44,845 bases of DNA from Desulfofustis sp. GTDB taxonomy: Bacteria > Desulfobacterota > Desulfobulbia > Desulfobulbales > Desulfocapsaceae. The notes under the pieces are model-generated. The model did not search any database, had not been told where the DNA came from, and saw nothing but the letters and a program-made list of their open reading frames with translations. Below are positions 36,983 through 42,205 of this stretch, one piece after another. Made by a program: the position numbers and the translations under genes. The DNA lies in the NCBI GenBank assembly GCA_022340565.1, contig JAJDNR010000077.1:1-44845 (forward strand), given 5' to 3'. The stretch's first letter is position 1. Every line of letters begins with the position of its first letter.

Positions 36983-37421
36983 GATAACCCTCCGTTCAGA
37001 ACAGACTGCAAGACCGTTACCGCTGTTGAGACAGGTAAGCTGTTTTAAAATTGATTTGTAACGTATTACCACAATATGAATGCGACCGCTTGTGCTTGTC
37101 GATATTACTTCCCTGGAATCAAGGCATGGGTCATTGCCCATACTTCCCATGATGTCGTTCATGCTTCGGGCACGACAGCAGGTCGGCAGAGCCGGCGTGA
37201 AAAGTTCTATCGATTAGAAATTGCATGGGAACGGAGAAGGTGCGTCCAATCACCCCCTGTTTCGGTTCTAACGGGCTGCTCGGTTATTCGTTTGCTCTAT
37301 CCCTGAAAAGCCGTCATGGTAGCCAAAAATCATTGAGAAAATTTGCTTCCTGAGAAATTTTGGTTAGCCTATAGATAGAGCTTCAGCGACAAGGTTCAGG
37401 CGTATCAGAAGCACAGAAGCT
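36983..37421. other. Intergenic region at the left edge of the cytochrome island
   Basis: 439 bases between the dehydrogenase (minus) and the cytochrome c gene (plus), with falling GC content towards the right. It should contain both promoters. One weak sigma-54-like site is annotated at 37281-37296. No gene supported. Confidence 0.4.
37281..37296 (+). promoter_or_regulatory. Weak sigma-54-like site upstream of the cytochrome c gene
   Basis: CGGTTATTCGTTTGCT has GG at 37282-37283 and GC at 37294-37295 with the required ten bases between, and TTGCT matches the -12 element; the -24 side lacks the CAC. It is about 125 bases before the ATG. One or two GG-N10-GC matches are expected by chance in a region this size. 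Confidence 0.25.
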
Positions 37422-38546
37422 ATGAAAAAAAACTATCACTTCACCGTGCGATACGGGTTGTACATTATTCTCACCTGCTCAGTATTATGTCCCTCTCCCC
37501 TTGCAGCCGTTGATAATTCCGAATGTTTTGAATGCCACAGCGATGAAGGCCTTACCACGGAAAGTACCGACAACATCTTACAGATAGAGATAACCGAGTC
37601 TCTGTACGTGGATGAAGATACGTTTGATAAATCGATTCATAACCTCATCGGTATTACGTGCGTAGATTGTCATGCCGATATTGAAGAACTCGATTGGAAT
37701 GAGGAGGTTCCCCACGCGCGCCGTTTAGAAAAGGTGCACTGCGTCTCGTGCCATGAAGATGCGGGGGAGGAGTTCAAAAACAGTGTCCACATGAAAATGA
37801 GGACGAAAGGCATAACCATGACCTGCTATGCCTGCCACGGTTATCATTACGTTCGCCAGATGGAAGGTGCTTCGGTCGCTGAACGGACAAACAGTATCTG
37901 CCTGAAATGCCATAATCCCAATCAGTTCCACGAGTGGTTGCCTTCAGGTGATGCGCATTTTGCCCACGTAGAGTGTGTCGTTTGTCATGCCCCGGAGGTT
38001 CCGCGCCATATAGATCTCAGGTTTTATGACCTGATCACCATGAGATTTTATAAAGGTGATGAACTCATTAAAATCATAGGAACCAATTTCGACAAGATCA
38101 TTCAGACGATTGATAAGAATCATGATCAAATTATCGGCATGAATGAGTTTGATGACCTCTTTTTCATGCTCAAGCAAAAAAATATTCGACCGATCTTACG
38201 GGCTGAACTGGTTGCGGATATCAACTCCATTGCGCACCAGATAAGCCGTGAATCTGCGCAAAAAACCTGTGAGATGTGCCATGCGTCTGATTCACCATAT
38301 TTTAATGCGGTTTCGATAATCTTGATCAGGGATGATGATACTGTGGAACGGTACAAAATCGACCGGGCGATTCTCGAAAGCTATTATGTAAGCCATTTTT
38401 ATCTTCTCGGTGGTACCCGGATAAAACGTTTGGACAAGATAGGTCTGCTGATCATCGCCGGGGGAGCGTGCGCCGCGCTTGGACATCTTATTATCAGGGT
38501 GTTGACTATCCCGTTGCGACGAGGAAAGAAGGAGAATGACGATTAG
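37422..38546 (+). CDS. Heptaheme cytochrome c with EF-hand-like insert and C-terminal anchor
   Basis: A 374-residue exported multiheme cytochrome. A signal peptide (YGLYIILTCSVLCPSPLAA) is followed by seven CxxCH heme sites starting at residues 35, 80, 107, 135, 160, 185 and 283. Between the sixth and seventh, about 95 residues without heme contain DKNHDQIIGMNE (231-242) flanked by helices, which fits an EF-hand calcium loop (acidic or amide residues at 1, 3, 5, Gly at 9 in place of the usual pattern, Glu at 12). A membrane helix at 339-360 with a basic tail anchors it to the inner membrane, facing the periplasm. It is followed 41 bases later by a cytochrome b gene, so the pair probably exchanges electrons with the quinone pool. 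No catalytic subunit is adjacent, so the terminal partner is unknown. Confidence 0.9.
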   Translation: MKKNYHFTVRYGLYIILTCSVLCPSPLAAVDNSECFECHSDEGLTTESTDNILQIEITESLYVDEDTFDKSIHNLIGITCVDCHADIEELDWNEEVPHARRLEKVHCVSCHEDAGEEFKNSVHMKMRTKGITMTCYACHGYHYVRQMEGASVAERTNSICLKCHNPNQFHEWLPSGDAHFAHVECVVCHAPEVPRHIDLRFYDLITMRFYKGDELIKIIGTNFDKIIQTIDKNHDQIIGMNEFDDLFFMLKQKNIRPILRAELVADINSIAHQISRESAQKTCEMCHASDSPYFNAVSIILIRDDDTVERYKIDRAILESYYVSHFYLLGGTRIKRLDKIGLLIIAGGACAALGHLIIRVLTIPLRRGKKENDD

Positions 38547-38587: not shown

Positions 38588-39205
38588 ATGAGCAAGGGAC
38601 GCCTGCTCTACAACTATCCGCTGCCGGTACGGGTATGGCATTGGATCAATGCATCCGGTTTCGTATGTCTGATTCTCACAGGCTTTCAGATTCGATATGC
38701 TGAAGTGCTGAATTTTATGCCCCTGACAGTGGCAATATCGATTCATAACTATGTGGGATTTGGGGTAATTGCCAATTTTTTCGTTTGGCTTAGCTATTAT
38801 CTGGGTACCGGCAACGTGAAGATTTATATCCCTGACTCACGCGGCTGGCTTGCTCTTGTATGGGAACAGCTGAAATACTATGGATATGGCGTCTTTGTTG
38901 GCAAGCATAATCCGCACCTGATGAGTCCGGAAAATAAATTTAACCCCCTTCAACAACTGGTCTATCTTGTCGTCATGTTCGTTTTTCTGCCTGCTCAAAT
39001 GATGTCAGGGCTCTTTCTCTGGCAGATTAAGAAGTATGAGGAATACATTAACCTGCTGGGGGGGATCAAGCTTCTCGATACAATTCATGTTCTGTTGTTT
39101 TTCCTGTTTACCTCCTTTCTTGTTATCCATTGTTATTTTGCAACACTGGGACACACCCCGCTTGCACGTTTTAAGGCCATGCTTACCGGCTTTGAAGAAC
39201 ATTAA
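38588..39205 (+). CDS. Four-helix cytochrome b (b561 / Ni-hydrogenase b-subunit type)
   Basis: A 205-residue integral membrane diheme cytochrome b. It starts LYNYPLPVRVWHWINASGFVCLILTG, and the candidate heme ligands His18, His53, His167 and His181 lie in four hydrophobic helices, the arrangement found in formate dehydrogenase, hydrogenase and thiosulfate reductase b-subunits. GAAGAGG precedes the ATG. It follows the heptaheme cytochrome c gene and is presumably the quinone-side subunit of a membrane electron-transfer complex with it. Confidence 0.9.
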   Translation: MSKGRLLYNYPLPVRVWHWINASGFVCLILTGFQIRYAEVLNFMPLTVAISIHNYVGFGVIANFFVWLSYYLGTGNVKIYIPDSRGWLALVWEQLKYYGYGVFVGKHNPHLMSPENKFNPLQQLVYLVVMFVFLPAQMMSGLFLWQIKKYEEYINLLGGIKLLDTIHVLLFFLFTSFLVIHCYFATLGHTPLARFKAMLTGFEEH

Positions 39206-39760: not shown

Positions 39761-40189
39761 ATGACTGAATGGTTGATCTTTCTGGCAATAGTCCCGCTAT
39801 CCTGCATATATCTGACCAAGAGCATGGAGATAAAAAACAGGATTATGTGGAACGGTATCGCGATCGGGGCGGTAATAGCGCCCGTAAGTTTTGGCTTGAT
39901 TCAGATGACGTATATACCGTTTCTCGGCAAATTTTTAGGGCTTGTTGGGGTTATCGTCAATCTGACGCATGGCTCAATCGGCTATATCAGTTTGCTTTGG
40001 AGTGGAATGATCGAGCCGAACCAGCCGATTACAGCCCTGGAGTTTGTTATGATAAACACCTTCAACGGGGTCCTGTTTGCTTATATCTATGGTTTGATCG
40101 GATATGCAGTCGACAGAAGAATGGCAAAGGAAAAAGACAGAATACCGGCGCTGAAGGCTATGTTTCACACCGTAACTCCTCACTCGTGA
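39761..40189 (+). CDS. Small polytopic membrane protein 1 (unknown, paralogue of the next)
   Basis: A 142-residue protein with about four membrane helices and a short basic tail. Not recognised. It is clearly paralogous to the next gene: both share WLIFLA/YLILLA-I-PLSC at the start, a central APVSF...TY(I/V)P...GKF(L/M)GL(V/I)G block, an EP...TAL(E/Q)F segment and NGV(L/V)FA...Y...IG...VD(R/I)R. A conserved His (HG/HF) and the Glu of EP lie near the membrane and are candidates for a heme or proton role. GAGAGG precedes the ATG. Confidence 0.8.
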   Translation: MTEWLIFLAIVPLSCIYLTKSMEIKNRIMWNGIAIGAVIAPVSFGLIQMTYIPFLGKFLGLVGVIVNLTHGSIGYISLLWSGMIEPNQPITALEFVMINTFNGVLFAYIYGLIGYAVDRRMAKEKDRIPALKAMFHTVTPHS

Positions 40190-40322: not shown

Positions 40323-40733
40323 ATGAGCCAGTACCTGATCCTCTTAGCCTTGATTCCTTTGAGCTGTTTTGAACTTGTTAAGCTGTTTAAATGCCGCTAC
40401 AAAAATACGATCTGCGGATTTTTTACAGGACTGGTCATTGCCCCGGTAAGCTTTGCATGTATTAATTTCACCTATGTGCCGATAATTGGAAAATTCATGG
40501 GATTGATCGGACTCTTTATTCACCTTGCACATTTCTGGTTCGGGTATCTTTGCGTGATCGGCATGGATATTGTCGAGCCGGGGGCTGAAGTAACTGCTCT
40601 GCAGTTTACCCTGATAAGTGGGATTAACGGTGTGGTATTTGCTGCTGTCTATGCCGTCATAGGGTGTATCGTGGATATAAGACGGCGAAACACCATATTC
40701 ACCCGGAAAATTTTCCCTAAGCTTTTATATTAA
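40323..40733 (+). CDS. Small polytopic membrane protein 2 (unknown, paralogue of the previous)
   Basis: A 136-residue protein with about four membrane helices, starting SQYLILLALIPLSCFELVKL, preceded by an excellent ribosome binding site (AGGAGG at 40311-40316). It aligns along its whole length with the preceding protein (APVSFACINFTYVPIIGKF, then VEPGAEVTALQF and NGVVFAAVYAVIG). The tail is Arg/Lys-rich and cytoplasmic. The pair sits behind the cytochrome genes and convergent with a sigma-54 activator. No function can be named; a quinone- or heme-linked membrane partner of the cytochromes is one possibility. Confidence 0.8.
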   Translation: MSQYLILLALIPLSCFELVKLFKCRYKNTICGFFTGLVIAPVSFACINFTYVPIIGKFMGLIGLFIHLAHFWFGYLCVIGMDIVEPGAEVTALQFTLISGINGVVFAAVYAVIGCIVDIRRRNTIFTRKIFPKLLY

Positions 40734-40858: not shown

Positions 40859-42205
40859 CTACTCCTTGTGGATATTGTATTTTTTCATCTTGCGCCAGAG
40901 CGTACTCGGATTTATTGACAGGTACGTTGCCGTAGCGCGTCTGTTCCAGCCGTGCTTTTCAAGGGCGGCTCTGATAGTGCTCTCCTCGGAAGCGGCCAGC
41001 GGTTTTACCGCTGCAATTCCCTCGCCGGCTTTTCTGCTCTGATGGGCATTGCGCAATTCCTTGGGAAGATGGTCCAATTCAATGATGTTTCCATGACAGA
41101 GGATGAAGGCATATTCGATAAAATTTTCCAGTTCCCTGACATTGCCGGGGAATTCATATTCCATGAACACATCGAGAACCTCCTGGGAAACGCCTGTAAT
41201 GCACATTCCTTTGAGAATGTTAAATTTTTCTATGAAATTATCCACGAGGAGTGAGATATCCTCACGGCGTCTGGATAGTGGTGGCAGGTAAATTTTGACA
41301 ACATTGAGGCGATAGAAAAGATCTTCCCTGAATATTTTCTGGTCAACGAGGTCGGCAAGGTTCTTGTTGGTTGCTGCTAAAATCCGAACATCTGCCTTGA
41401 CGGTTTCCATGGATCCAAGCGGTTCGAATTCCATTTTTTCCAGTACCCGCAGCAACTTCATTTGCAAGGCACTTGAAATATCGCCTATTTCGTCGAGCAA
41501 AAAGGTGCCGCCTTCGGCCAGGGAAAACCGACCGGGCTTATCGCGTTTTGCCCCGGTGAAAGCGCCTTTTTTATATCCGAAAAGCTCGGACTCCAATAGA
41601 GTGTCCGGTAGAGCTGTGCAGTTCAGGGCAACAAATTTGCCGGGGCGTTCACTCAGATCATGTATTGCCTTCGCAAATAGCTCTTTTCCGCTGCCGCTTG
41701 GCCCTTCGATCAGAACGGTGCTGTCGCTTTTGGCTATGTCCGGCAGGATGTCGAGAATTTTTTTGATTTCGCGATTCTTGGTGATAATGTCTGATATGGA
41801 ATACAGGCCATCAATTTTTTTGCGCAAATATTCTATTGCGGTGATGTCCCGCATGGTTTCCACACCACCGATAACGTCTCCGAATTCATCCCGGACTACC
41901 GAGGCACTGATGGTTACCGGTATCTGCCGACCATCTATGCTGACAATAGTGGTTTTTCTGGAAAGCTTCTCTTCGCCGGTCAGCATGCTTTCCTTCAAAA
42001 AACAGTGCTTCTTGCATTGATCGCTGGTGCCTCCTAAAACTTCGTAACATTTTTTCCCGACAGCCTGATCTTTCTTTACACCGGTCAACTTTTCTGCGGC
42101 GTGATTGAAATAGGTAATCGTCTGATCACAGTCGATGATAAAAATACCATCGGCAATGGAATCGATAATGATATTGACGCAGTCTTGATCACTTTTTTTA
42201 AACAC
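40859..42205 (-). CDS. PAS-domain sigma-54 transcriptional activator with a PAS cysteine cluster
   Basis: A 448-residue one-component activator. The N-terminal PAS domain (about 10-125: SIADGIFIIDCDQTITYFN) contains Cys53, Cys64 and Cys68 (C-x10-C-x3-C), a possible redox, heme or metal sensor. The AAA+ domain has Walker A GPSGSGKE (168-175), GAFTGA (214-219) and Walker B TFLLDEIGD (234-242); the C-terminal Fis-type helix-turn-helix reads WNRRATATYLSINPSTLWRKM. The start is GTG at 42205, behind GGGGG. It has no receiver, so the signal is sensed directly. It converges on the membrane-protein/cytochrome genes and is their most likely regulator. Confidence 0.92.
   Translation of the reverse strand: MFKKSDQDCVNIIIDSIADGIFIIDCDQTITYFNHAAEKLTGVKKDQAVGKKCYEVLGGTSDQCKKHCFLKESMLTGEEKLSRKTTIVSIDGRQIPVTISASVVRDEFGDVIGGVETMRDITAIEYLRKKIDGLYSISDIITKNREIKKILDILPDIAKSDSTVLIEGPSGSGKELFAKAIHDLSERPGKFVALNCTALPDTLLESELFGYKKGAFTGAKRDKPGRFSLAEGGTFLLDEIGDISSALQMKLLRVLEKMEFEPLGSMETVKADVRILAATNKNLADLVDQKIFREDLFYRLNVVKIYLPPLSRRREDISLLVDNFIEKFNILKGMCITGVSQEVLDVFMEYEFPGNVRELENFIEYAFILCHGNIIELDHLPKELRNAHQSRKAGEGIAAVKPLAASEESTIRAALEKHGWNRRATATYLSINPSTLWRKMKKYNIHKE

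Follow-up and report, generated by a model that had tools for sequence, protein, structure and literature searches.

Organization of the locus

The window, that is, the whole 44,845-nucleotide stretch of Desulfofustis sp. DNA analyzed here, codes on its forward strand for a CbcA-type heptaheme cytochrome c of 374 aa (37422–38546; ATG start, with the stop codon ending at 38546). The product has seven CxxCH motifs, namely CFECH (heme 1, residues 35–39, 37524–37538), CVDCH (heme 2, residues 80–84, 37659–37673), CVSCH (heme 3, residues 107–111, 37740–37754), CYACH (heme 4, residues 135–139, 37824–37838), CLKCH (heme 5, residues 160–164, 37899–37913), CVVCH (heme 6, residues 185–189, 37974–37988) and CEMCH (heme 7, residues 283–287, 38268–38282). 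All seven are invariant across the 63 heptaheme proteins that we aligned (63/63 for heme 1), and a linker of 93 residues separates the sixth from the seventh. In the same alignment, H73, H123, H142, H179 and H272 are invariant, and every row has a histidine no more than nine columns away from each of positions 98 and 170. This suggests seven candidate distal histidines for the seven hemes, such that all of them are likely to be bis-His-ligated, which would make the protein a wire rather than a catalyst. The N-terminus bears a predicted Sec signal peptide (residues ~1–29, 37422–37508), marked by KK, a hydrophobic stretch and the ending PSPLAA, while hydropathy points to a C-terminal transmembrane anchor (residues ~338–361, 38433–38504). 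Together, these features predict a membrane-bound protein with its heme domain in the periplasm.

Downstream on the same strand lies the gene for a CbcB-type diheme cytochrome b (38588–39205; PF01292, E = 1.6e-26). Four histidines of this protein (H18, H53, H167 and H181) are invariant across the family and would, on the model of FdnI, fit two b hemes. A cytochrome b follows directly 3′ in 58 of the 63 heptaheme loci by the gap rule of our script; in the remaining five its frame overlaps the end of the heptaheme gene or is fused to it, such that on inspection the linkage extends to 63/63. Hence, the seven hemes, the C-terminal anchor and the cytochrome b neighbor that had been reported in a first-pass annotation of this DNA all stand.

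The anchor region is itself under strong constraint: H355 (38484–38486), R359 (38496–38498) and R366 are found in 63/63 proteins, the first two being no more variable than the heme cysteines. A histidine is similarly placed in the FdnH-type anchors of formate dehydrogenase, which end in HYLAIGP and dock to an FdnI-type cytochrome b. Likewise, 19-heme relatives end in GLHTLLWFP and lie beside a frame resembling a b-type membrane protein. Since the histidine is shared with both of these anchors, it is probably a common docking or quinone-pocket feature. As a separate observation, the H355/R359 pair may serve as a marker of docking to FdnI-type cytochromes b or of a quinone pocket.

Further along the forward strand are two small membrane proteins of 142 aa (39761–40189) and 136 aa (40323–40733), which are paralogues of each other (E = 1.9e-32) and belong to no Pfam family. 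Homologues of both are found no more than ~2 kb from cbcBA in three related genomes (loci L031, L063 and L064), and our guess is that they represent a partner or an assembly factor of the CbcBA-type complex. The reverse strand codes for a PAS/sigma-54 transcription activator (40859–42205), with homologues adjoining cbcBA in the same three loci; it is a possible regulator of the pair. A scan with a sigma-54 promoter pattern returned 11 matches versus 20 expected by chance, none of them just upstream of 37422–38546.

The pair is of the CbcA/CbcB type

Three Geobacter-type loci (L065, L066 and L074) display a shared gene order: a 7-heme cytochrome c, a cytochrome b, a 12-heme cytochrome c, a ~277-aa protein with a single CxxCH motif and another membrane protein. 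The window c subunit matches their counterparts with E = 2e-30 to 3e-34 and the b subunit with E = 2e-48 to 4e-52. This make-up is that of cbcABCDE, which comprises the 7-heme CbcA, the b-type CbcB, CbcC (with 11 hemes in G. metallireducens), the monoheme CbcD and the membrane protein CbcE (PMC10470525). Thus, the window pair is of the CbcA/CbcB type (quinone:cytochrome c oxidoreductase), an assignment based on the composition of the operons, sequence homology and what has been published on the Geobacter proteins. No cbcC, cbcD or cbcE adjoins the pair, and the window lacks all three; we accordingly file the pair as CbcBA-type rather than as a full Cbc5 complex. The first-pass annotation had also remarked on the lack of a catalytic subunit; this is no puzzle because CbcB and CbcA have been reported to form a quinone:cytochrome c oxidoreductase by themselves.

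The Geobacter pairs (GSU0594/GSU0593; Gmet_2928/2929; CbcBA/Cbc5) resemble that of the window in combining a 7-heme membrane-bound cytochrome c with an adjoining PF01292 protein. GSU0594 is listed as a membrane-bound heptaheme cytochrome c of the periplasm and adjoins the PF01292 protein GSU0593 (PMC7726332). Both settings also feature a nearby sigma-54 activator, though that of the window has a PAS domain, whereas the Geobacter-type loci have a response regulator and a histidine kinase. (The activator of L031 is also PAS-type; L065 is one of the loci with the response regulator and histidine kinase.) Moreover, the Geobacter-type homologues in cbcABCDE-like operons have in common with the window protein the EF-hand loop considered below, while the window sequence constitutes a separate branch (E ~1e-30 between branches). 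In Geobacter, CbcBA has been described as a cytoplasmic-membrane oxidoreductase for low potential, and in Seep-SRB2 it has been proposed to support reverse flow between periplasmic cytochromes and quinones (PMC10553843, PMC12307469).

We consider it highly improbable that the window protein is instead some other multiheme cytochrome (NrfB-like, NapC/NrfH-like or a relative of CbcL) that lies by chance beside a cytochrome b. It does have weak matches to the NrfB and decaheme models and to the Pfam NrfB-like family, but all of its NCBIfam matches are far under the cut-offs (37.9 versus 184 bits for NrfB), and the seven hemes, the C-terminal anchor and the family-wide cytochrome b linkage fit CbcA.

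At a threshold of E ≤ 1e-60, orthologues were detected in 48 of the 243 genomes of the window genome's order; one orthologue is in Desulfobulbus rhabdoformis (L031), and more distant ones are found throughout the phylum. Within the window's own family, genome G012 has a 205 bp stretch (L025:1502–1706), containing a stop codon, that is 73% identical to window positions 37333–37540, which span the upstream region, signal peptide and first heme of the cbcA-type gene. This is apparently the remnant of a lost cbcA and, taken with the absence of the gene from the other sampled members of the family, makes a loss within the family likely.

An EF-hand loop between hemes 6 and 7

Within the 93-residue linker lies the loop DKNHDQIIGMNE (D231 to E242, 38112–38147, forward strand), which, followed by F243, is an exact match to the PROSITE pattern PS00018. 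The ligand residues would be D231 (position 1), N233 (position 3), D235 (position 5) and E242 (position 12), with the hydrophobic I238 at position 8. A PS00018-type match arose in 208 of 100,000 shuffles of the window protein and in none of 169 unrelated neighboring ORFs. The Pfam EF-hand_1 model scores the window protein at 11.6 bits (E = 0.22), below its cut-off, and matches 14 of 19 orthologues, with a best E of 1.7e-4. A helix-loop-helix is predicted at residues 223–252 (38088–38177, forward strand) by low-confidence AlphaFold models of the full-length protein and of a fragment, which were computed from three-row alignments (window, L031 and L032) and have mean pLDDT values of 32 and 44. 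In both models, helices at 223–229/231 and 240–252 flank the loop, with a pLDDT of only ~37–53.

We also inspected by eye the regions ~36 residues upstream and downstream for a second EF loop. The sole candidate, D266 to E277, holds the invariant H272 and lacks the ligands, and we therefore rejected it. Each 7-heme module has one EF loop, which is hence unpaired within the chain.

Of 103 distinct heptaheme homologues, 100 retain an intact loop. This set was obtained from 115 unique sequences by setting aside 12 neighboring multiheme proteins devoid of the loop region; some of its genomes are related to one another, and a few of its proteins are truncated at the end of a contig. This degree of retention rules out a chance origin of the loop. 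In the alignment of 63 proteins, D231 is kept in 61 (97%) and E242 in 62 (98%); position 233 is N/D/S in 63/63, position 235 is D/N/S in 62/63 and position 238 is I/V/L/M. The only linker residues reaching at least 85% identity in this alignment are I197, D231, E242 and H272, i.e., the two ends of the loop, an isoleucine and a histidine. The EF-hand-like loop noted in the first-pass annotation is therefore borne out, as the homologues keep it together with the seven hemes and retain its acidic residues. The accompanying remark that such Ca2+-type loops are rare in multiheme cytochromes of anaerobes does not hold for the CbcA-type family, in which the loop is near-invariant.

All three exceptions (L015, L017 and L148) belong to a single genus, g34, in which the loop is lost with a one-residue insertion and all hemes are retained; L014, from a neighboring genus of the same family, retains it. 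That g34 drops the loop ligands yet keeps its hemes indicates that the site is not strictly essential. Judged by its sequence pattern, the EF-hand-type loop is a near-universal trait of the whole known cytochrome family and not an oddity of one bacterium.

A structure in the PDB provides a further example: chain 28pb_A ('Cytochrome c', 278 aa) has its seven hemes arranged in the order seen here, together with the EF loop DTNNDNYISLAE, and our family profile recovers it with E = 6e-24. It differs from the window protein in that the chain lacks the anchor and belongs to the Geobacter-type branch (best identity 76%). While the window protein itself belongs to a known family, the family-wide EF-hand is apparently undescribed: we found no description of it for CbcA in the open papers that we searched, and a literature search for EF-hands in multiheme cytochromes gave nothing relevant. 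The Pfam motif table for GSU0594 has the doubled CXXCH motif only (PMC7726332). The loop may have been noticed previously, by automatic pattern annotation or by those who deposited 28pb.

A proposed structural role for the loop in the electron-transfer wire

Starting from the hemes, the loop and its conservation, the gene partner and the family, all of which are read from the sequence, we propose that the window protein is the CbcA of a two-gene CbcBA-type inner-membrane oxidoreductase in which the EF-hand acts as a structural Ca2+ staple. Taken as a whole, we regard this proposal as likely; the quinone reaction, the direction of flow, the Ca2+ occupancy and the structural role are the parts that we infer. 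Under it, the diheme CbcB would trade electrons with menaquinone and the anchor helix of CbcA would dock onto CbcB. The wire would probably have its membrane-side end at heme 7, ~50 residues before the anchor, from which hemes 6 through 1 would pass electrons to or from periplasmic cytochromes. The seven-heme protein very probably carries electrons between the membrane quinones and the periplasm. The unpaired EF-hand in the linker is a putative site that would, most likely, bind one Ca2+ permanently, and this staple would fix the geometry of the heme 1–6 part relative to heme 7. A single, ever-present Ca2+ locking this geometry would account for the strict conservation of the loop, its unpaired state and its location.

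We consider it unlikely that the loop binds another cation (a transition metal, Mg2+ or Mn2+), or that it is an EF-hand relic kept for the fold and devoid of metal. The identity of a metal is not readable from sequence, genus g34 does without the loop ligands, and in Geobacter sulfurreducens cobalt induces cbcA and cbcB more strongly than it does most other genes that respond to it, placing both in the top group (PMC7726332). Against this, the ligand positions 1, 3, 5 and 12, with Glu at position 12, are kept in ~97% of the proteins, a pattern that fits Ca2+ with a bidentate Glu, and a relic would drift.

Regulatory EF-hands are usually paired, whereas the CbcA-type proteins have one loop per heptaheme module. 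This argues against the EF-hand being a Ca2+-responsive switch, in which binding would shift heme 7 with respect to hemes 1–6 and tune the flow up or down. The position of the loop between two heme groups and its strict conservation are compatible with such a switch, but it would operate in the periplasmic compartment, where Ca2+ tracks the outside medium, and we found no Ca2+ effect on CbcA described in the papers that we searched; we therefore see it as quite unlikely. That this would be a genuine Ca2+ switch in a core respiratory wire, with Ca2+ setting the coupling between heme 7 and hemes 1–6, appears very unlikely to us; if it were true, many bacteria that reduce sulfate or iron would have their quinone-linked respiration at low potential tuned by external Ca2+. 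The first-pass annotation had offered both gating of electron flow and stabilization of heme-domain packing as roles for the loop. As the EF-hand is single and lies in a periplasmic domain, gating is unsupported, and stabilization of packing is the better of the two options.

The near-invariant metal-type site, which falls between heme 7 and the other six, is a specific, testable element of wire assembly, for which genus g34, having lost the loop, offers a natural control. CbcBA-type complexes are one way of linking the quinone pool with periplasmic cytochromes during extracellular respiration at low potential; their reverse operation has been proposed for syntrophic sulfate reducers. The combination of seven hemes, one EF loop and an anchor with an invariant His and Arg furnishes a signature by which the family may be recognized in genomes.

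Related systems and architectural variants

Structural Ca2+ sites are known from NrfA and other multiheme cytochromes, in which they are not of the EF-hand helix-loop-helix kind. CbcL is one fused chain with a heme count different from that of the window pair. The two are alike in that CbcL is a bc-type inner-membrane menaquinol oxidoreductase, which functions in low-potential respiration in Geobacter sulfurreducens (PMC12307469).

Closer to the window protein are 13-heme cytochromes from other families of the phylum (L038–L042), which share with it the module, the EF loop and the C-terminal anchor, but differ in that the module is duplicated and usually accompanied by two EF loops. Across these and three further loci (L043, L057 and L058), two modules are present, most with an EF loop in each. 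A cytochrome b lies 3′ of the 13-heme gene in the flanks that we examined (L069, L070 and L072). Finally, CbcA and CbcB are fused into a single 7-heme chain of 608 aa that keeps the EF loop in L122, and probably likewise in L159 (641 aa).
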